Virus record (IMG/VR): IMGVR_UViG_3300043466_000467
Coordinates: 1-26,727 of that record
Direction: 5' to 3' (one strand)
Source of the DNA: a virus
DNA length: 26,727 nucleotides
Positions within the stretch are counted from its first letter, which is position 1, and every line of letters begins with the position of its first letter. A program made the position numbers and the translations under genes. Below are positions 2,082-26,269 of this stretch, piece after piece. The notes below the pieces were generated by a model, which searched no databases, was not told the DNA's origin, and worked only from the letters and a program-made list of their open reading frames with translations.

Positions 2082-2129
2082 TTAGTAACTTTAACTAAGT
2101 TTAGTATCTTACTTGTTAGGTAAAAAAGG

Positions 2130-2155
2130 CTCCTTGTTTTTGCAAGGAGTTTTTT
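2130..2155 (+). terminator. Intrinsic terminator
   Basis: CTCCTTG (2130-2136) pairs with CAAGGAG (2143-2149) with a T-rich 6-nt loop and a following run of T (2150-2155). It closes the unit ending with the 210-aa gene. The hairpin overlaps the promoter-like elements for the next gene. Confidence 0.85.
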
Positions 2156-2165
2156 ATTATATTTG
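2134..2165 (+). promoter_or_regulatory. Bacteroidota-type promoter candidate
   Basis: TTG at 2134-2136 and TATATTTG at 2158-2165 are separated by 21 bp, close to the Bacteroidota consensus (TTG or TTTG, 19-21 bp, TAnnTTTG). A transcript would begin near 2172, giving a leader of about 9 nt before ATG 2181. The -33 box lies inside the upstream terminator stem. Confidence 0.5.
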
Positions 2166-2180
2166 TTCCAAAACCAACTT

Positions 2181-2363
2181 ATGTCAAATAAAAAGTTACT
2201 TCTACAGGTCATTGTAGATGATGAGGACAACATAGGTATTGCCTATGGAGAAGATGCTGATAAAAATCATTTAGTACTTATCGGAGTCCTAGAGCAGATT
2301 AAGCATGAGCTTATTAGTTCTAATAATGTTATGGTAACTGGTAAACAAAAGTATGATGCCTAA
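2181..2363 (+). CDS. Small phage protein, unknown function (60 aa)
   Basis: I place the start at ATG 2181 rather than the in-frame TTG at 2163, because that TTG lies inside the TATATTTG promoter box. The 60-aa product alternates hydrophobic and polar residues (KKLLLQVIVDDEDNIGIAYG), suggesting a beta hairpin, then a helix (EQIKHELISSN). It has no membrane segment and no family I can name. Its stop overlaps the next gene's start by 11 nt, so the two are probably translated together. It begins the second small accessory unit. Confidence 0.65.
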   Translation: MSNKKLLLQVIVDDEDNIGIAYGEDADKNHLVLIGVLEQIKHELISSNNVMVTGKQKYDA

Positions 2364-2619
2364 GAAGTATACAAAAAAGCCACTTGTTGTTGAGGCTGTT
2401 ATATGGAATGGAAGTAATAGGTCAGAGATATTTGATTTCTGTAGTTTGTCTTATTTTAATTATGAGTTTGGATCTAGTGATCCAAAGCTTATGATACAAA
2501 CTTTAGAAGGACCTATGAGTGCTTCTGTAGGTGACTATATTATTAAAGGTATCAAGAATGAGTTCTACGCATGTAAACCTGATGTGTTTAAACTCACATA
2601 TGATTCAATAGAAGAGTAA
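2353..2619 (+). CDS. PGDYG-like small phage protein
   Basis: The 88-aa protein follows a pattern common in phage genomes: an N-terminal KKYTKKPLVVEAVIWNG (a K-kP-v-vEA-qW-G strand), a middle variable section, then VGDYIIKGIKNEFYACKPD, matching the PGDWIIkGvkGEFYpCkPdiF ending of PGDYG-type proteins. It is a compact beta-rich domain without membrane or signal segments. The biochemical role of this family is not established as far as I know. The start overlaps the previous gene's end by 11 nt; two consecutive ATGs (2353, 2356) are both possible. Confidence 0.7.
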   Translation: MMPKKYTKKPLVVEAVIWNGSNRSEIFDFCSLSYFNYEFGSSDPKLMIQTLEGPMSASVGDYIIKGIKNEFYACKPDVFKLTYDSIEE

Positions 2620-2635
2620 ACTAAATAAATGTAAA

Positions 2636-2899
2636 ATGGAAGTTAAAGAAATAAGAGTGCCAAGTTTTGGTGAGCAGCTTATTGGTATAAACATAGATGA
2701 TGAAAATACTGATGAGGTAACCAAAGTAAAAAAGTTATTTGCTGAGATAGCAGAGATCATGAAGAAAAACTACACAAGTGATAACAAGCACCCACTAAAA
2801 AGTCTTTTATTTGATCATGCTGTGGGAGAAATAGTAAATGCACAAATGACAGTAGTAAAAGTATTAACCCTTAAACATTACACAGAAGATGAAGCTTAG
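2636..2899 (+). CDS. Possible Acb2/Tad1-hairpin-like nucleotide sponge (anti-CBASS)
   Basis: An 87-aa, mostly helical protein. A short lead with FGEQLIGINID (11-21) precedes a helix VTKVKKLFAEIAEIMKKN (28-45), a polar break, and a second helix that ends in EIVNAQMTVVKVLTLKH (65-81). This two-helix pattern, with a closing AqM-aVKalt segment, resembles the Acb2/Tad1 hairpin family as I remember it. Acb2 members form oligomers that bind cyclic di- and trinucleotides and blunt CBASS immunity. The resemblance is by eye only and ligand-binding residues were not checked. It lies between PGDYG-like and GroES-like genes in an accessory cluster, a usual site for anti-defence genes. The next gene overlaps its end by 11 nt. 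Confidence 0.45.
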   Translation: MEVKEIRVPSFGEQLIGINIDDENTDEVTKVKKLFAEIAEIMKKNYTSDNKHPLKSLLFDHAVGEIVNAQMTVVKVLTLKHYTEDEA

Positions 2900-3164
2900 A
2901 GGAAAAAGAGTGTTGATCTCAACACCAGAATTAAAAAAATCACCAATTGAATTATCAGCATCAGATGAAGATATGATAATGAGAGATGCAATGAAACAGT
3001 GGCAAAAGCTAGAAGTATTTGCAGTAGGAGATGAAGTAACTAATCTTAATGCCGGAGACTCAGTATATATCCAGACATATGCACTAGAGTCCGGAGAAAG
3101 AATTGAGATTGAAGGAAATATAAAATTCTTAGTACCAGATACAGCAGTAGCAATTATCTGGTAA
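2889..3164 (+). CDS. GroES-like (Cpn10 fold) small protein
   Basis: A 91-aa beta-rich protein laid out like a co-chaperonin: an N-terminal GKRVLIS strand, a polar flexible stretch (about residues 13-32) where the GroEL-contacting mobile loop would lie, then KLEVFAVGDEVTNLNAGDSV (41-60), which matches the kVlavGd-V--lk-GDkV pattern of GroES, and a final TAVAIIW strand. Phage co-chaperonins such as T4 gp31 replace or supplement host GroES for capsid folding, which would fit a phage with a large capsid gene. Identity is by pattern only; another small beta-barrel is possible. It overlaps the preceding gene by 11 nt and ends the accessory cluster. Confidence 0.5.
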   Translation: MKLRGKRVLISTPELKKSPIELSASDEDMIMRDAMKQWQKLEVFAVGDEVTNLNAGDSVYIQTYALESGERIEIEGNIKFLVPDTAVAIIW

Positions 3165-3178: not shown

Positions 3179-3211
3179 AAGTATTCTAATAGTCACGTAT
3201 AGGTAAGAGAG

Positions 3212-3246
3212 TCCTCAGATATTTATCTGGGGATTTTGTTTTTTAA
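3212..3246 (+). terminator. Intrinsic terminator before tail module
   Basis: TCCTCAGAT (3212-3220) pairs with ATCTGGGGA (3225-3233), including one G-T pair, around a 4-nt loop, followed by TTTTGTTTTTT. It separates the accessory cluster from the tail fibre block. Confidence 0.8.
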
Positions 3247-3289: not shown

Positions 3290-3451
3290 ATGGACGTTTT
3301 AAATTTTATTTATTGGATACGCGCTGGTAGAAAGGTAACTACTGTTGATGCAAATAGAACACTTATCCCTTTAGGATTAAAGGATGGCAGAAGAGATGAT
3401 GAGTATCTTGCTGGTGCAATAAGTGTAGCTGATTTTGTAAGTCAGTATGGA
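3290..3451 (+). repeat. Anchor-domain repeat, copy 1
   Basis: This encodes the 54-residue N-terminal domain that recurs at 4342-4503. At the protein level 41 of 54 positions are identical, including all of GLKDGRRDD and AGAISVADF. After this point the two proteins do not resemble each other. Confidence 0.85.
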
Positions 3452-4324
3452 CAAGGACCTGTGGGTCCTGCTGGTCCACAAGGTGTTCAAGGACCAATTG
3501 GTGCACAAGGTATACCAGGTCCAGTAGGTCCAGCAGGATTAAACTGGCAAAGTGCATGGTCAGCTTCAGGTACTTATGTAATAGATGATGCTGTAGGATA
3601 TAACGGAGCCTCTTGGTTTTGTATAAATCCAGTAGGACCATCTGTAACTACTCCAGATCTAGACCCGACTAATTGGGCACTATTAGCAGCAGAAGGTGCT
3701 CAAGGACCACAAGGTATTCCTGGTGTACAAGGTCCTACAGGTGCTCAAGGTCCTGCTGGATCAATAGCTCCATATACAAACGGTACTGTATTTGCTGTAA
3801 GCGGTACAGGAACTGTAATGACAGCAGATATTAATGCTATTGTAGCAACTACAAATAACTGGAATGTTAGATTACCTCAGAATGTACCAGCAGGAAAAGA
3901 AGTGTTTGTGTATGGTTCATCACAAATAGGTACAGGCTATACAAACGTACAAGCCTTTAACTTAGGACCTTCAATCATTACTAATAAGTCTAATCAATCT
4001 ACAGGACAGTTTCCAGTATATTTAACTGACATTGTAAGATTTACTTCAGCTGGTAATGATTTTTGGATTGCTGAAAACATTACATCTTCTCCTCTAAGAT
4101 TTAATAATCAGATTGTAAGTGGTGTTGGTAATATTATTAATGAAATAACTACTAATCCCACTACAAGTGCTTTGAGTTTAGCATCTCTAAACTCTACTTA
4201 CAGCAACTCTCAATATGCATTTGGATTTAAAGTAGTTTGCCCTAGTATCACAGGTGGTGGATTGATGTATATTAAAACAGGCACAGCTACTTGGGTAAGT
4301 GTTCCTGTAACAGCAGTTGTATAA
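3290..4324 (+). CDS. Tail fibre/adhesin: anchor domain, two collagen-like segments, CBM-like insert
   Basis: A 344-aa fibre protein. Residues 1-54 form an N-terminal anchor (MDVLNFIYWIRAG, then GLKDGRRDD, then AGAISVADF) shared with the next fibre gene. Residues about 56-83 and 136-157 are Gly-X-Y collagen-like repeats, which normally trimerise into thin rods. Between them, 85-132 (WQSAWSASGTYVIDDAVGY, then GASWF and a final W129) resembles type 5/12 carbohydrate-binding modules. The C-terminal half (160-344) is a beta-rich domain of unknown fold, probably the distal tip. It is the first gene of the tail block, behind a terminator and promoter-like motif. Role in surface adsorption is inferred from domain layout and neighbours. 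Confidence 0.85.
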   Translation: MDVLNFIYWIRAGRKVTTVDANRTLIPLGLKDGRRDDEYLAGAISVADFVSQYGQGPVGPAGPQGVQGPIGAQGIPGPVGPAGLNWQSAWSASGTYVIDDAVGYNGASWFCINPVGPSVTTPDLDPTNWALLAAEGAQGPQGIPGVQGPTGAQGPAGSIAPYTNGTVFAVSGTGTVMTADINAIVATTNNWNVRLPQNVPAGKEVFVYGSSQIGTGYTNVQAFNLGPSIITNKSNQSTGQFPVYLTDIVRFTSAGNDFWIAENITSSPLRFNNQIVSGVGNIINEITTNPTTSALSLASLNSTYSNSQYAFGFKVVCPSITGGGLMYIKTGTATWVSVPVTAVV

Positions 4325-4341
4325 TTTTAAATAAGGCAATC

Positions 4342-4503
4342 ATGGATATCTTAAATTTTATCTCTTGGATCCGTGGGGGTAGACAAGTTACTACTGTAGA
4401 CCCTGCCAAAACACTTTTACCTGTAGGTTTAAAAGATGGAAGACGTGATGATGGTTATCTTGCAGGGGCTATCTCTGTAGCAGACTTTGCCAGTTTAGTT
4501 GGA
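4342..4503 (+). repeat. Anchor-domain repeat, copy 2
   Basis: Second copy of the 54-residue N-terminal domain of the gene at 3290, about three quarters identical at protein level with many synonymous differences, so the duplication is not recent. Confidence 0.85.
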
Positions 4504-4971
4504 GAGCCTTCTGTAACTTTTGTAAACGGTGTTTTTGATCCTCAAGTACAAGCAACAATGACTGCTATAGGAGGAACTATTACTGATTCTCTTGGTGATG
4601 TATATGATAGATATAGAATTCAAGGAGTTGCTAAAATAAATGGAGCTGCAAGTTATGCATATCTTATTGGTGTAGTAGTTGGTTCAACTCCTCTATTAAG
4701 AGTAAGAGAAGATAGTACTATACTAGCAACAGATACTAATGTTTATGACACAGTAGCTTCAGCTATGAACTTTAATGTTCTTGTAAAAGATGGAACAGGT
4801 GCTTTAATTTCAACTATTTCAGCATTTATTGCAGATGACAATACAATATCATCTCCTGATGAACATTGGTTTACATTAGTAATGACAGCAGGAGCACCTT
4901 TTAGTGCAGATGTCAGTATTGATTTTACAATTGCAGTACCACAAGGACCAGTAATAGAATTTTTTAATTAA
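4342..4971 (+). CDS. Tail fibre/adhesin sharing the anchor domain
   Basis: I set the start at ATG 4342, which begins the conserved MDILNFISWIRGG anchor; an in-frame ATG at 4291 lies inside the previous gene and would add 17 unrelated residues. The 209-aa protein has the 54-residue anchor followed by an unrelated beta-rich C-terminal domain (about 55-209), with a VMTAGAPFSADVSIDFTIAV strand region near the end. No collagen repeats are present. Shared anchor with different tips suggests that both proteins attach to the same or equivalent virion sites and bind different targets. The receptor is not evident. Confidence 0.85.
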   Translation: MDILNFISWIRGGRQVTTVDPAKTLLPVGLKDGRRDDGYLAGAISVADFASLVGEPSVTFVNGVFDPQVQATMTAIGGTITDSLGDVYDRYRIQGVAKINGAASYAYLIGVVVGSTPLLRVREDSTILATDTNVYDTVASAMNFNVLVKDGTGALISTISAFIADDNTISSPDEHWFTLVMTAGAPFSADVSIDFTIAVPQGPVIEFFN

Positions 4972-4980
4972 TTAACGGCT

Positions 4981-5097
4981 ATGAAAAAGACTAATTTAAA
5001 TGAATACTTGCTTGCTAAATATGGTAATAAAGTAAAAAACATTGCTAAAAAGTTTACTGAACAAAAAGCAAAGTATGTTCAACAAGGTAAAAAATAA
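4981..5097 (+). CDS. Very small lysine-rich protein (38 aa)
   Basis: ATG 4981 opens a 38-codon frame that fills the space between two fibre genes, 9 nt after one and 6 nt before the next. The product has 11 lysines among 38 residues and a probable single amphipathic helix (KVKNIAKKFTEQKAKYVQQ). No family is recognised. The snug fit between neighbours supports translation, but a fortuitous frame cannot be excluded. A nucleic-acid-binding or virion-associated peptide is conceivable from charge only. Confidence 0.5.
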   Translation: MKKTNLNEYLLAKYGNKVKNIAKKFTEQKAKYVQQGKK

Positions 5098-5103
5098 ATA
5101 ATC

Positions 5104-5655
5104 ATGGATATATTAAATTGGCTGTACATTAAAAAACAAGAGCTTATAAGAAAAAAAGCAAATGATGCTAAGACAGATCTTATAGCTCTGGGTGCTAATG
5201 TAGGATTTAACAGAAGAGATGATCAGTATCAGACTTATGCTATGCCTTTAAATGACGGAGTTCAAGCAGGTATAGAAGCTAATACTGCGCATTATGAGTT
5301 AGATATTACAGCTACTAGTGTTGTAACAGTATCTACACCAAGAGGTATTATTGATATTCTTGGTATGGGATCATCTGCTCCTTTAACTCCTGATCCAGCA
5401 TTTGCTACAACAGTATCTTTTTTAATTGATAATCCAGATTTAGATCTTACTTTAGCTAACAGAGATAATATATATGTACAGTACTCAGTATATTACAAAA
5501 ACACCATAACTGATAATGTTATACCGTATTTAATATCTACAGGAGTTGCAAATGGATTAGAGTTTAATCTTTATAATGCTAATCCTACATTAGCCGGAGT
5601 TAATAACTGGGATGGCGCACTATATATTTATTATGAACTTTATACAATTAATTAA
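5104..5655 (+). CDS. Tail fibre/adhesin with diverged anchor domain
   Basis: The 183-aa protein starts MDILNWLYIKKQELI and keeps the general anchor pattern, with a dLIALG segment and FNRRDDQYQTYAMPLNDGV (about 40-58) at the place of GLKDGRRDD...AISVADF in the two preceding fibre genes. The rest is beta-rich (DITATSVVTVSTPRGIIDIL, later NIYVQYSVYYKN and GALYIYYELYTIN) and looks like a single jelly-roll-like tip domain, though the fold is unassigned. It probably occupies a virion position related to that of the first two fibres. Overall homology of the anchor is weak and rests on pattern. Confidence 0.75.
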   Translation: MDILNWLYIKKQELIRKKANDAKTDLIALGANVGFNRRDDQYQTYAMPLNDGVQAGIEANTAHYELDITATSVVTVSTPRGIIDILGMGSSAPLTPDPAFATTVSFLIDNPDLDLTLANRDNIYVQYSVYYKNTITDNVIPYLISTGVANGLEFNLYNANPTLAGVNNWDGALYIYYELYTIN

Positions 5656-12704: not shown

Positions 12705-12958
12705 CACCTACTGAAATTACAACATTTATAATTGGCACTGCTGTATTAATTATTGGGTACTTCCTAAAGATAGTTCATAGTGATGTACGCAAAAATACAG
12801 AAGAACAAGGAAAACTTAAAGGTAAGATAGAACTTGTAGAACAAGAAGCCAGATTAAAGTATCAAGCTATTCAAGAACAAACTCAACTAGAGATTAAAAA
12901 TCTAGCTAAGAATGTTGGAGATCTAGCAAATACAGTAAGAGAATTAATAAGTAAGTAA
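12701..12958 (+). CDS. Small membrane coiled-coil protein of the lysis cassette
   Basis: An 85-aa protein with one N-terminal transmembrane helix (TTFIIGTAVLIIGYFLKIVH, 8-27) and a charged heptad-patterned helix (about 28-85) predicted to form a coiled coil. This resembles inner-membrane spanin-like, antiholin-like or hemolysin-type accessory proteins. The gene overlaps the spanin gene by 4 nt and the PAS gene by 1 nt (TAATG), so the three are probably translated in step. The PAS protein also has a coiled coil next to its membrane helices, so direct pairing is possible. No biochemical role can be assigned. Confidence 0.6.
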   Translation: MTPTEITTFIIGTAVLIIGYFLKIVHSDVRKNTEEQGKLKGKIELVEQEARLKYQAIQEQTQLEIKNLAKNVGDLANTVRELISK

Positions 12959-14073
12959 TGAAAAATCTTCCAAAAGAAGAGTTGTTAAGTAGGCTTGAAG
13001 CAATTAATAGAAGTAATGCTATTATTTACTTTGACCTTGGTGGTATTATACTAGGGGTCAATGACATTTTTTTGGAAGCAATGGGTTATGGTAAAGGAAA
13101 CCATGATGATATTATTGGCAAACACCATAGCATTTTTGTATGTGATGATTACGCAAGAACACTTGAGTATGAAAAGTTTTGGGATATACTAAGAAGTGGT
13201 AAGTATTACACTGGAGAATTTGAAAGAAGAAAAAAAGATGGAAGTCTTATAAATCTTCAAGCAACTTATAATCCTATATTTAATGAGGATGGTAAAATTA
13301 CCAAGATAATGAAGATTGCTACTGATATTAGTTTAATTGTCAATAGCAAAAAACAGATAGATGCCATCAACAGAAGCACTGCTCTTATTAGTTTTAACAT
13401 TGATGGATTTATAACAGATGTGAATTCTATATTCTTACAAACAATGGGATACAAAGCCAATGAAAAAAGTAAAGTCATTGGTAAACATCATAGTGTTTTT
13501 GTCAGTTATGAATATTCAAAGTCTGATGAATATACCAAGTTTTGGGAAAGTTTAAGAAAAGGTAAGTACTTTGATGGGATATTTGAAAGAAAAAAAGTAG
13601 ATGGTGCTACTGTTTACTTACAAGCATCTTATAATCCTGTAGTAGACAGCAAAGGAAATATCACGGATGTAGTTAAAATTGCAACTGATGTTACTGCAGC
13701 TGTAAACAATGAGAAAAAAATAGAGGATCTTTCAAAGAATCTACAAATAGAACTAGACAACTCTCAAAAGCTTAAAAATGCAATAGAGATAGAAAAAGAT
13801 GCAGCTTTGAATGACTTAGATGTAATGATGAAAAAAAGTCAGAGTGAGCTAATAAAAATAATTGTTAAAGTTGCATTAGCTGTTATAGTAGGAGTAGGAC
13901 TTGTAACTACAACATTATACTGGATGGCTATTGTTACAAAACAAGATACACAAATAATAGGATCAACTTGGAGTAATATGTTTAGTGTATTATTAACTAA
14001 TGCCTTTTCAATAGTAGGCACAATTATGGGTATCAAGTATGCTACTCAAGAACCTAGTAAACAAACAAAATAA
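12958..14073 (+). CDS. Tandem-PAS protein with coiled coil and two C-terminal TM helices (lysis cassette)
   Basis: The 371-aa protein contains two PAS domains in tandem, residues about 16-127 and 138-249, similar to each other (IIGKHHSIF/VIGKHHSVF; KFWDILRSGKYY/KFWESLRKGKYF; LQATYNPIF/LQASYNPVV; KIATDIS/KIATDVT). They resemble the PAS pairs of soluble chemotaxis receptors such as BdlA, where PAS domains can bind flavin or heme. There a methyl-accepting signalling domain follows; here there is a coiled coil (about 250-297) and two membrane helices (299-324 and 341-361), with a short charged tail. No kinase, GGDEF or methyl-accepting domain exists. It lies between a membrane coiled-coil gene and a holin candidate. 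A sensor acting on holin or on lysis timing is inferred; the ligand is unknown. Confidence 0.85.
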   Translation: MKNLPKEELLSRLEAINRSNAIIYFDLGGIILGVNDIFLEAMGYGKGNHDDIIGKHHSIFVCDDYARTLEYEKFWDILRSGKYYTGEFERRKKDGSLINLQATYNPIFNEDGKITKIMKIATDISLIVNSKKQIDAINRSTALISFNIDGFITDVNSIFLQTMGYKANEKSKVIGKHHSVFVSYEYSKSDEYTKFWESLRKGKYFDGIFERKKVDGATVYLQASYNPVVDSKGNITDVVKIATDVTAAVNNEKKIEDLSKNLQIELDNSQKLKNAIEIEKDAALNDLDVMMKKSQSELIKIIVKVALAVIVGVGLVTTTLYWMAIVTKQDTQIIGSTWSNMFSVLLTNAFSIVGTIMGIKYATQEPSKQTK

Positions 14074-17780: not shown

Positions 17781-18295
17781 TGCTAACTAAACTCTTTGAT
17801 GTTCAGAATGGAAAAGTAATTCCTACAGAGCATTGTTATACATTAAAAGCTCTTAAAGATATTATGGATGAGTATCCGGAAGACTATCTTAAGATATATC
17901 AATATATATTTTACATGAGCTGTCCTAATCCAGATCTTAATCCATTTTTCTTTGCTCCAGATGTAGATAAAGAAGCACTTATATTACAACAGATAGAAGC
18001 TGAATTTTCTACAGAAGATGATACTATATATGTAGCATTAGAGTTTTGTAAAAGACTATATGAAACTCCAACATTCAGAGCATATAAAGGTATTGCATCT
18101 ATGTTAGATAGATTAGGAAGATATATGGAGAATACTCCTATTACACACGGTAGAGATGGTAGTATAAATTCAATAATTGCTGCTGCTAAAAACTTTGAAC
18201 AGATTAGAGCATCTTTTAAAGGAGTATATAAAGATCTACAAGATGAACAGCAAAGTAAAGTAAGAGGTGGTCAAGGATTAGCATATGACATGTAA
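17777..18295 (+). CDS. Unknown protein directly upstream of TerL
   Basis: A 172-aa, mostly helical protein (TLKALKDIMDEYPEDYLKIY; REMENTP-type turns absent; helices in ALEFCKRLYETPTFRAYKGI, about 92-111). The end NFEQIRASFKGVYKDLQDEQ followed by SKVRGGQGLAYDM is flexible and basic. The location just before TerL, with a 4-nt overlap to the nuclease gene and a TAATG overlap to TerL, is where a small terminase subunit would be expected. However, no helix-turn-helix or TerS motif is visible, so I do not assign it. Start at 17777 or 17780 (two ATGs). Confidence 0.65.
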   Translation: MMLTKLFDVQNGKVIPTEHCYTLKALKDIMDEYPEDYLKIYQYIFYMSCPNPDLNPFFFAPDVDKEALILQQIEAEFSTEDDTIYVALEFCKRLYETPTFRAYKGIASMLDRLGRYMENTPITHGRDGSINSIIAAAKNFEQIRASFKGVYKDLQDEQQSKVRGGQGLAYDM

Positions 18296-20502
18296 TGAGT
18301 GAAATTTATCAAGATATACCAACCTATGACAATGGAGAATGGACAACAACAAGTTTTGAATCCAGAGAAGACTTCAGTAAGTTTATTTTTGAAATATTTA
18401 AAATACCAGGAAAATATAACTTCAATGAAACTACAAATAAGATATTTATATCTGAGTCAACCAACTTTAGAAAAAACGGAATATACTGTACATCTCCATT
18501 TAAATCATTAGATTATGTAGCATATTGGGATGATCAAAAAATAAAATGCCGTAAAGGAGTTATAGTTAAAGATGCAGATAATACTTGGTTTATAGCTAGA
18601 GAGTATTATATGTGGTTAAACTTCTTACCAATCTTTGATAAAGAACAACAGAAGTTTGACTTTGCTAAAATACGTGATGCCCAGTATCATTTAGCATTAT
18701 ATGAGTTACTTGCTGAGTTAAACTACAAACACTCTGCTATTTTAAAGAAACGTCAGATTGCATCCTCATACTATCATATGGGTAAGCTTATTAATCAGCA
18801 ATGGTTTGAAGCCGGTGTTACTTTAAAAATGGGTGCTAGTCTTAAAGATTACATTAATGAAAAAGGTTCTTGGAAATTTTTAGATGAGTATGCTGCATTC
18901 TTAAATGAACACACTGCTTGGTATAGACCTATGAATCCACAGAAAGTAATGATGTGGCAGCAAAAGATTGAAGTAAGAAAAGGAGATAGAAAGAATGAAG
19001 TTGGTCTCAAAGGTACTATACAAGGTATGTCATTTGAGAAAGATCCAACAAATGGTGTCGGTGGTCCAGTTAAATTCTTCTTTCATGAGGAAGCAGGTAT
19101 TGCTCCTAAAATGGATCAGACCTATGAGTATATGAGACCAGCAATGAGATCTGGTTTAATAACTACAGGAATGTTTATTGCAGCCGGATCTGTGGGTGAC
19201 TTATCACAATGTAATCCATTAAAGGATATGATAATGAATCCATTATCTAAAGATATTTATGCTGTAGAAACAGATCTTCTAGATGAAAAGAATACTGTTG
19301 GTATGTCAGGTTTATTTATTCCTGAACAATGGTCTATGCCACCATACATAGATGACTATGGTAATTCACTTGTAGAAGAAGCATTAAAAGCTTTAGATGA
19401 ACAGTTTGCTCAGTGGAAAAAGGAGTTAGCTCCAGAAGAATATCAGTTAAGAATTTCTCAGCATCCTAGAAATATTAAAGAAGCATTTGCTCATAGAACG
19501 GTATCTGTATTTCCACCGCATCTTCTTGCTGCACAAGAAAGAAGAATAGAAGAAAAAGAATACTCTTATGAGTTTTTAGATATTACTACAACAGCTGAAG
19601 GAAAGCCACATGTTACTCTAAGTGCTAAAAGACCTATTATGGAGTTTCCTGTAAATAAAAAAACAGAAGATAAAAGAGGTTGTCTAGTAGTATGGGAAAG
19701 ACCAATAAAAGAACCAATATTCGGAGTACACTATTATGCATCTATTGACCCGGTGGGTGAAGGTAAAACTACAACATCAGAATCATTATGCTCTATTTAT
19801 GTTATGAAAGCTGCTGTAGAAGTAACTAAAGTTATGGGCACAGAAACAGAAACATATATTGAGCAAGATAAAATAGTAGCTGCATGGTGCGGCAGGTATG
19901 ATGATATAAATCAAACACATAAACAGTTAGAATTAATAATTGAATGGTATAATGCCTGGGCTATTGTAGAGAATAACATATCTTTATTTATTCAGTATAT
20001 GATTCAAAGAAAGAAACAAAGATATTTAGTACCTAAAGGTCAGATTATGTTCTTAAAAGATTTAGGTTCTAATGCTAATGTTTTTCAAGAGTATGGTTGG
20101 AAAAATACCGGTGTTTTATTTAAAGCACATCTCTTAAGTTATGCTATTGAATTTTGTAAAGAAGAATTAGATCAAGAAGTAAAACCTGATGGTACTGTTG
20201 TTAGAACAACATATGGTATAGAAAGAATTCCAGATCCTATGTTAATTAAAGAGATGAGAGAGTACTCTGATGGGGTCAACGTAGATAGGCTAGTTTCATT
20301 TGCAGCACTTGTTTCTTTTATGAAAATACAGAATTCAAATAGAGGTTATGCTAAGACAGTTATTATGGATGAAGCAGCTAAAAACTTGCAAAAGTCAGAA
20401 AATTTATATAAATTATCTCATAGCCCATTCCGTAATATAGGAAGAGGGCAAATAGTTAATGGACAAAAGTTTAAAAAATCTCCATTTAAAAACTTTAAAT
20501 AA
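18295..20502 (+). CDS. Terminase large subunit (TerL)
   Basis: A 735-aa protein with ATPase and nuclease halves. The N-terminal part has a deviant Walker A (KKRQIASSYY, 151-160) and a Walker B-like FFFHEEAG (261-268), a strand followed by acidic residues at the catalytic position. The C-terminal RNase H-fold nuclease shows YASIDPVGEG (D485), IVENN (E559) and NVDRLVSFA (D664), the spaced acidic residues that bind two metals. The enzyme packs DNA into the prohead through the portal and cuts it. Size fits large crAss-like terminases. The start overlaps the previous stop; the portal gene follows after 5 nt. Confidence 0.9.
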   Translation: MSEIYQDIPTYDNGEWTTTSFESREDFSKFIFEIFKIPGKYNFNETTNKIFISESTNFRKNGIYCTSPFKSLDYVAYWDDQKIKCRKGVIVKDADNTWFIAREYYMWLNFLPIFDKEQQKFDFAKIRDAQYHLALYELLAELNYKHSAILKKRQIASSYYHMGKLINQQWFEAGVTLKMGASLKDYINEKGSWKFLDEYAAFLNEHTAWYRPMNPQKVMMWQQKIEVRKGDRKNEVGLKGTIQGMSFEKDPTNGVGGPVKFFFHEEAGIAPKMDQTYEYMRPAMRSGLITTGMFIAAGSVGDLSQCNPLKDMIMNPLSKDIYAVETDLLDEKNTVGMSGLFIPEQWSMPPYIDDYGNSLVEEALKALDEQFAQWKKELAPEEYQLRISQHPRNIKEAFAHRTVSVFPPHLLAAQERRIEEKEYSYEFLDITTTAEGKPHVTLSAKRPIMEFPVNKKTEDKRGCLVVWERPIKEPIFGVHYYASIDPVGEGKTTTSESLCSIYVMKAAVEVTKVMGTETETYIEQDKIVAAWCGRYDDINQTHKQLELIIEWYNAWAIVENNISLFIQYMIQRKKQRYLVPKGQIMFLKDLGSNANVFQEYGWKNTGVLFKAHLLSYAIEFCKEELDQEVKPDGTVVRTTYGIERIPDPMLIKEMREYSDGVNVDRLVSFAALVSFMKIQNSNRGYAKTVIMDEAAKNLQKSENLYKLSHSPFRNIGRGQIVNGQKFKKSPFKNFK

Positions 20503-24649: not shown

Positions 24650-26269
24650 ATGGCAACTCCAGTTTTAAACAATGGTATCTTTCTACGGGATACAGCCTAT
24701 GCGGCAAGTTCACACGTAGATTCATACCACTTGGTTAACATGTTGAAGGATGCAGAACCAATGGACTTAGGTCCAGTAGACCTATGGGCTATGGCTCAGA
24801 AGGTGGAAATGCCTCTTTACCAAATGTCTAGCTTTGGTGGTAAGAATGTAATTATGGTAGATAATGCTCGTGGTGAGTATAAGTGGCAGACTCCAGTATC
24901 AGTGGATCTTCCTTATATCATTGAAGACATTGAACCAGACAACAGTTTTAAAGGTGTAGATGGTACTACATTCCGTATCAAACTTAGCAGAAGAGAATTT
25001 GGACATGGTGATATCATCACATATGACAAATACAACGGAGCTGAGATGTACATTGTACCAACTGAAGACATCTTACCTGTAGGTGATGGATTTATCTATA
25101 CAGTACAACTTGTAGATAATGACAACAACCGTTTCTTAGATAACAGATACCTTTCTAACGGTACTAAAGTATTCCGTAAAGGTTCTGCTAGAGGAGAATA
25201 TGGTGAGAGATTTTCTGACATCCAAACAAGAACTGGTTTCCGTGAATTCTACAACTTTGTAGGAGGTGCTGAAGCTCACGTACATTATTCTATTTCTAGC
25301 CGTGCAGATCTTATGATCAAAGGTGGTATGAATGCAGATGGTACAGTTCCTGTAACTGAGATCTGGAGAAACTTTGGAGCTACTAATGATCCTTCTATCA
25401 CATCTTTAGAAGATATGGTAAAAGTTCTTGGTAAAGACAAAGTAAAGAAAGCTTTTGATAACGGAGACTTGTCAAGAACATTCTTGACTACTATGGAAGC
25501 TGCTCACCTTTCTAAAATTGCTACTGACATTGAGACTTACTTAATGTGGGGACAAGGAGGTAGAGTTAAGCAAGATGGTCCAGATGATATCAGATTATCA
25601 GTAGGTCTTTGGAAACAGTTGGACAACTCATTTAAAAGAGTATACAACAAGAACAACTTTACATTAGATTTATTCCGTGGAGAAATCTACAACTTCTTCA
25701 ATGGTAAGGTTGAGTTCCAAGGTCCAGATCCAAAAAGATCTCTAGTAGTTCAGACTGGTATGGGTGGTATGAGAATGGTTAATGAAGCTATCAAAAGAGA
25801 AGCAGTATCTTCTGGTCTTTTGATCCAAGCTGCTGACATTGGTGCTATCACTGGTAAAGGTATGGATTTGAACTTTGGATTTGCATATACTTCATATGTA
25901 ATTCCATTCTTGGCAAATGTTAAGTTTGTTCTTAACCCAGCATTTGACAATGTTCATACTAATGACATTGAGAATCCAATCATTGATGGTTTCCCATTAT
26001 CTTCTTACTCATTCATTATCTTTGATATCACAGATAATACTAATGATAACATCTTCTTATTAAAGTTATCTTGGGATAACCAACTTAAGTGGTGGTATCA
26101 GAATGGTACTATGGATTATATGGGTAGAACTCAAGGTTTCCAGTCTTCTGGACAATTCAATGGATACCGTGTAATGATGTCTCAAACAATGCCAGCTATC
26201 TGGGTTAAGGATCCTACTAAGGTTCTTAAGATTGTTATGAGAAACCCAATTACAGGTGGATCATTCTAA
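24650..26269 (+). CDS. Major capsid protein (HK97-fold, inferred)
   Basis: A 539-aa protein with mixed alpha/beta sequence and no low-complexity regions except the end. It starts NNGIFLRDTAYAASSHVDSY and contains VDLWAMAQKVEMPLYQMSSF, a pattern matching capsid proteins of large Bacteroidota phages as I recall. Codon use is somewhat more biased (more CTT, GGT, AAC, ATC) than neighbours, as expected for a highly expressed gene. It lies 28 nt after the scaffold-like gene and is followed by a strong terminator. The HK97 fold is assumed for tailed phages. An N-terminal cleavage site cannot be seen. Confidence 0.85.
   Translation: MATPVLNNGIFLRDTAYAASSHVDSYHLVNMLKDAEPMDLGPVDLWAMAQKVEMPLYQMSSFGGKNVIMVDNARGEYKWQTPVSVDLPYIIEDIEPDNSFKGVDGTTFRIKLSRREFGHGDIITYDKYNGAEMYIVPTEDILPVGDGFIYTVQLVDNDNNRFLDNRYLSNGTKVFRKGSARGEYGERFSDIQTRTGFREFYNFVGGAEAHVHYSISSRADLMIKGGMNADGTVPVTEIWRNFGATNDPSITSLEDMVKVLGKDKVKKAFDNGDLSRTFLTTMEAAHLSKIATDIETYLMWGQGGRVKQDGPDDIRLSVGLWKQLDNSFKRVYNKNNFTLDLFRGEIYNFFNGKVEFQGPDPKRSLVVQTGMGGMRMVNEAIKREAVSSGLLIQAADIGAITGKGMDLNFGFAYTSYVIPFLANVKFVLNPAFDNVHTNDIENPIIDGFPLSSYSFIIFDITDNTNDNIFLLKLSWDNQLKWWYQNGTMDYMGRTQGFQSSGQFNGYRVMMSQTMPAIWVKDPTKVLKIVMRNPITGGSF

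Follow-up and report, generated by a model that had tools for sequence, protein, structure and literature searches.

The window analysed here, a viral stretch of 26,727 nucleotides, encodes at positions 2636-2899 a short protein that an earlier note had read, from the letters alone, as a possible anti-CBASS sponge of the Acb2/Tad1-hairpin type with which the phage would block the cyclic-nucleotide immunity of its host. The locus raises the question of whether this protein is related to the known sponges and, if so, whether it would capture a nucleotide signal as they do.

We scanned the IMG/VR viral contigs and found relatives of the 87-residue product (MEVKEIRVPSFGEQLIGINIDDENTDEVTKVKKLFAEIAEIMKKNYTSDNKHPLKSLLFDHAVGEIVNAQMTVVKVLTLKHYTEDEA) encoded on 128 viral stretches, 80 of which were kept (55-77% identity to the window protein). 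Frames and motifs are conserved across the 80 kept relatives. Against near relatives, changes at codon position 3 outnumber those at position 1 about twofold and those at position 2 two- to fourfold. Because of these conserved frames and third-position-biased codon differences, we conclude that 2636-2899 is a real gene that encodes a conserved protein under purifying selection. The most conserved segment of the family is the EIVNAQMTVVKVLTLK region, GEI-[LV]-[NS]-AQM-x-V-x-K. It aligns with the second helix of the T4 Acb2 protein Vs.4, in agreement with the earlier view that this closing segment looks Acb2-like. The family also has a strict motif, KSLLFDHAxGE, at the start of helix 2. In many relatives (L012, L013, L016 and others) the N terminus is lengthened by about 30 conserved residues (MTQHQLDIWxKLTAESETNLEARIKFDKYMEE), which are absent from the window protein. 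One contig contains two copies of the gene, the second of them diverged (L067, second frame), a duplication within one phage.

Table 1. Features of the four-gene cassette around the hairpin gene (positions in the window).
Feature	Position	Strand	Details
Terminator-like hairpin ahead of the cassette	2124..2155	+	
Bacteroidota-type promoter-like match at the cassette head	2139..2165	+	TTTG-N15-TATATTTG
Small upstream ORF, 60 aa with ATG 2181 as start (TTG 2163 in the ORF list)	2181..2363	+	6 of the 80 related loci only
PHROG 419 phage protein, 88 aa, upstream neighbour	2353..2619	+	in 51 of 80 related loci
Hairpin-domain protein, 87 aa	2636..2899	+	ATG to TAG ORF; relatives; AlphaFold; superfamily link
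91-aa neighbour (orf91), tentatively GroES/Cpn10-like	2889..3164	+	synteny, alignment, weak profile matches
Terminator-like hairpin after the cassette	3208..3237	+	

Four short ORFs (2181-3164), of which this gene comes third, lie between two terminator-like hairpins (Table 1). The promoter-like match at the head of this cassette is only suggestive, because three such matches were found in the whole window against 2.1 expected, which is the chance level. The start of the downstream gene, orf91, overlaps the end of the hairpin gene by 11 nt; it occurs in 79 of the 80 related loci, usually directly downstream of the hairpin gene. Weak GroES-like and Cpn10 matches suggest that orf91 may be a phage co-chaperonin in crAss-like phages. 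Beyond the cassette lie fibre-like ORFs (3290-5655) whose products begin alike (MDILNFIxWIRxGRxVTTVD type), the first of them with collagen repeats (PF01391); they are probably tail-fibre paralogues with a common anchor. Elsewhere in the window, an AlkB-like 2OG-Fe(II) oxygenase (954-1445; PF13532, 45.6 bits) is found in 7 of the 80 related loci, and a protein encoded in a phage structural region (12958-14073) combines two PAS domains with probable transmembrane segments near its C terminus.

The carrier is a crAss-like phage. Its terminase (18295-20499) has matches in crAss-like, Bacteroides, Flavobacterium and Cellulophaga phages; for its putative major capsid protein (24650-26266 or 26269), the matches came from Leptolyngbya phage Lbo-JY46 and from crAss-like and Cellulophaga phages. 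Among named phages, the best capsid match is Lbo-JY46 (28% over 99%), recorded from a cyanobacterium. A scan of genome contigs returned a single relative of the hairpin protein, on a contig of a Bacteroidia MAG. Given a crAss-like carrier and this single genome match, a Bacteroidota host, as proposed earlier, is likely.

Is the protein homologous to the Acb2/Tad1 hairpins? The Pfam model of that superfamily, PF24729, matched none of the 29 family members that were scanned singly (gathering cut-off 27 bits), and one relative's genome gave a weak 12.1-bit match. Searches of PHROGs, PADLOC and the PDB with the window family returned weak unrelated matches only, and an Rfam search returned no match. 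Nup35_RRM_2, DUF2481 and Csx19 were dropped as identities, their matches being isolated and below the cut-off. A connection appeared through one relative (L054), which matches Aaphi23 ORF38 and the phages Providencia PS3, DSL-LC05 and Pmp11 (tblastn, E 3e-4 to 4e-3). In this intermediate group, DSL-LC05, EcP1 and Pmp11 score above the PF24729 cut-off of 27 bits (40.4, 37.5 and 42.5 bits, respectively) and PS3 reaches 23.9 bits. The first three also match PHROG 717, the PHROG used for Vs.4 homologues (PMC10097602).

The profile of the window family aligned with that of the intermediate group over 83 columns with a score of 105 (hhalign, 99.1%, E 5.9e-19), whereas the top score among 100 column shuffles was 18.6. 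Compared directly with the PaMx33-like and T4-like Acb2 profiles, the window family gave no significant match, so the claim of membership rests on the intermediate group. We also trained an HMM on the intermediate group and the two Acb2 groups, leaving the window family out, and ran it with 6,558 background frames. It recovered the members of the window family (window protein: E 2.6e-8, 32.4 bits); all matches with E < 1e-3 among the 6,558 frames were family members, and so were the three matches that fell outside the labelled groups. By both the shuffled-profile and the background-frame controls, the resemblance to Acb2/Tad1 hairpins is far above chance. The window protein thus has a strong link to the Acb2/Tad1 hairpin superfamily (PF24729), to which it is homologous over the full domain via intermediates. 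A chance likeness of a short helical hairpin, with no kinship to Acb2 or Tad1, would fit the want of a direct match in Pfam, PHROGs and the PDB; it is already disfavoured by the shuffled-profile controls, and the controlled profile, HMM and fold evidence make it highly improbable. The profile comparison that the earlier note had called for therefore succeeded at the superfamily level, via the intermediate group, and failed for PF24729 and for the Acb2 profiles when these were compared directly. The window family is a superfamily lineage that PF24729 does not detect, which bears out the suggestion that known members may not cover it.

The two-helix layout noticed earlier was recovered in both AlphaFold models of the window protein (pLDDT 81.6 and 86.9), which have a short helix at 11-16 (FGEQLI), long helices at 27-48 and 53-78, and no strands. 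AlphaFold and the Foldseek search of viral models (BFVD) agree on two long antiparallel helices. In that search, ranks 1, 2 and 4 were annotated as "Acb2/Tad1 hairpin domain-containing protein", rank 1 with a probability of 1.00 and TM scores of 0.62/0.82 (0.82 by target length), at an E-value of only 0.011. Against the PDB, neither model gave anything significant: Vs.4 stood at rank 38 (E 8.5), and CmTad1 was among the non-significant matches. Because the published layout of Acb2 is a short helix followed by two long ones (PMC10419184, PMC12043709), we liken the predicted fold to that of Acb2.

Membership in the superfamily does not make the protein an Acb2. In a tree of 73 sequences, the window family forms one clade (support 100/96) that adjoins the Bacteroidia MAG protein and lies within the intermediate group, the few columns limiting finer resolution. 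The T4-like and PaMx33-like Acb2 groups are set apart from it with a branch support of 100/98. The window family is therefore a branch of its own and does not group with the tested Acb2 proteins. Published work on Vs.4 (PMC10097602) assigns cGAMP stacking to Y8 and F82, polar contacts to Y8, H11, K23 and R79, and hexamer assembly to L29, A66, A73 and A77. Only a G and a K (Acb2 K26, Vs.4 K23, window K32) are invariant throughout our alignment (A6). The phosphate-contacting K23 and R79 correspond to K32 and K75 of the window protein, both still basic; across the window family and the intermediate group, K75 is invariant and K32 is conserved at 90% or more. Two interface alanines are kept (A66 as A62, A73 as A69) and A77 is replaced by V73. 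Vs.4 T68 and S74 correspond to G64 and Q70. The base-stacking positions have changed: Y8 aligns with I18 (or with G17, as the column hangs on a one-residue gap), the alignment shows no conserved GY-containing N-terminus with the stacking tyrosine, H11 becomes I20, and F82 becomes T78. F82 is not universal in Acb2 itself, since PaMx33 has an alanine there. As judged by alignment, the scaffold and charge are kept and the stacking residues are lost. With other residues at Y8 and F82, a ligand would probably be bound differently from 3'3'-cGAMP in Acb2. Of the type suggested in the earlier note, the superfamily part stands (profile, HMM and Foldseek), but a strict Acb2 does not, because the protein lies outside the tested-Acb2 clade, has no direct Acb2 profile match and has not kept the stacking residues.

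The distribution of the gene bears on its role. In a separate set of capsid-selected contigs, orf91 was complete in nine records, six of which carry the hairpin gene (G009, G010, G011, G013, G018 and G019, the last with a divergent copy at another place in the cassette). It was not found in the other three (G021, G023 and G024): G021 retains otherwise unchanged flanking genes with no hairpin ORF left between them, and in G024 a 317-aa ORF occupies its place. As it is missing from three genomes that retain orf91, we regard the hairpin gene as accessory. Such patchiness among constant neighbours would be more readily expected of an accessory counter-defence gene than of an essential virion gene.

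Considering superfamily membership, the kept basic and interface positions and the accessory distribution, we favour, with moderate confidence, the reading that the protein forms a hairpin oligomer and acts as a sponge for a nucleotide signal, with a ligand preference that has moved away from that of Acb2; both the ligand and the target defence are proposed by analogy. By comparison with T4 Vs.4 and PaMx33 Acb2, the hairpin protomers would associate via the alanine-rich faces of their two long helices, probably as a hexamer. The ligand, a nucleotide second messenger with negative charge, would be held between protomers, with K32 and K75 on its phosphates, and the sequestered signal would be kept from a host immune effector of CBASS, Thoeris or a related system. 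Sponges are known triggers of Panoptes, a system with a decoy signal (PMC12657218, PMC12657230). Four papers came up in a literature search on crAss-like phages and anti-CBASS, and none, judged by title and abstract, deals with such a protein.

A narrower form of the sponge reading, in which the target is not CBASS and the ligand is gcADPR (Thoeris), a cyclic tri- or tetra-adenylate (type III CRISPR) or a host signalling nucleotide, is a distinct possibility. It would accord with the loss of the dinucleotide-stacking residues of Acb2, with a strict helix-2 motif (KSLLFDHAxGE) not found in Acb2, and with Tad1, which has the hairpin in common and binds gcADPR and cyclic trinucleotides (PMC12043709), although in Tad1 the gcADPR pocket loops sit on an N-terminal beta-sheet (PMC12043709), which is missing from the models of the window protein. 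More speculatively, crAss-like phages may possess hairpin-only sponges in which the stacking residues have gone and the KSLLFDHAxGE helix forms a new pocket for another immune nucleotide of Bacteroidota, an extension that we hold to be rather doubtful. Less likely still, the hairpin oligomer was kept and now serves as a structural or assembly factor (a scaffold, a chaperonin partner or a virion component) and not as a sponge. Such a role would suit the altered Vs.4 pocket residues and the steady place of the gene beside the GroES-like gene and the tail-fibre genes in most relatives, as well as the position of the intermediate-group genes, which lie near lysis or terminase genes in Aaphi23, Pmp11 and DSL-LC05 and between internal virion protein genes in PS3. 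However, the gene is absent from three genomes that keep orf91, one of them with otherwise unchanged flanks, and two ligand-contacting basic positions of Vs.4 remain basic in the family. Should the sponge reading hold, it would give crAss-like phages a testable counter-defence and extend the Acb2/Tad1 superfamily to sequences that its Pfam model misses, and the altered pocket would reveal where in the hairpin scaffold ligand choice is determined.

Of the known systems, Tad1 is described as hexameric, each chain ending in two long helices (PMC12043709). Its C-terminal hairpin and the window protein have PF24729 in common, by the name of the Pfam family, whereas the window protein does not have the N-terminal beta-sheet; sequence searches brought in no Tad1 sequences, and the two are compared here by description and models. 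Acb2 (T4 Vs.4, PaMx33 p26; PHROG 717) resembles the window protein in its one short and two long helices, in the G and the K (K23/K32) that never vary, in the basic character at R79 and in the interface alanines A66 and A73. Unlike Acb2, the window protein has neither the IxGYrdLsxEEI N-terminus nor equivalents of Y8 and F82, and the KSLLFDHAxGE of its family is not common to Acb2. The PF24729 "FNPSG" proteins (Aaphi23 ORF38, Providencia PS3 Stuart_43, EcP1 gp26, Pmp11_0039 and DSL-LC05) differ in that the invariant KSLLFDHAxGE start of helix 2 belongs to the window clade, where position 72 changes from W to T, A, S or N. The window-clade carriers are crAss-like, some close relatives have the N-terminal extension of about 30 residues, and in the window protein itself IDDEN replaces FNPSG. 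The FNPSG proteins nevertheless match the family profile over its full length (99%, 83 columns), have the same predicted fold, and share its FGE-x-LVG-x-FNPSG start and AQM-x-V-K-x-x-T end.
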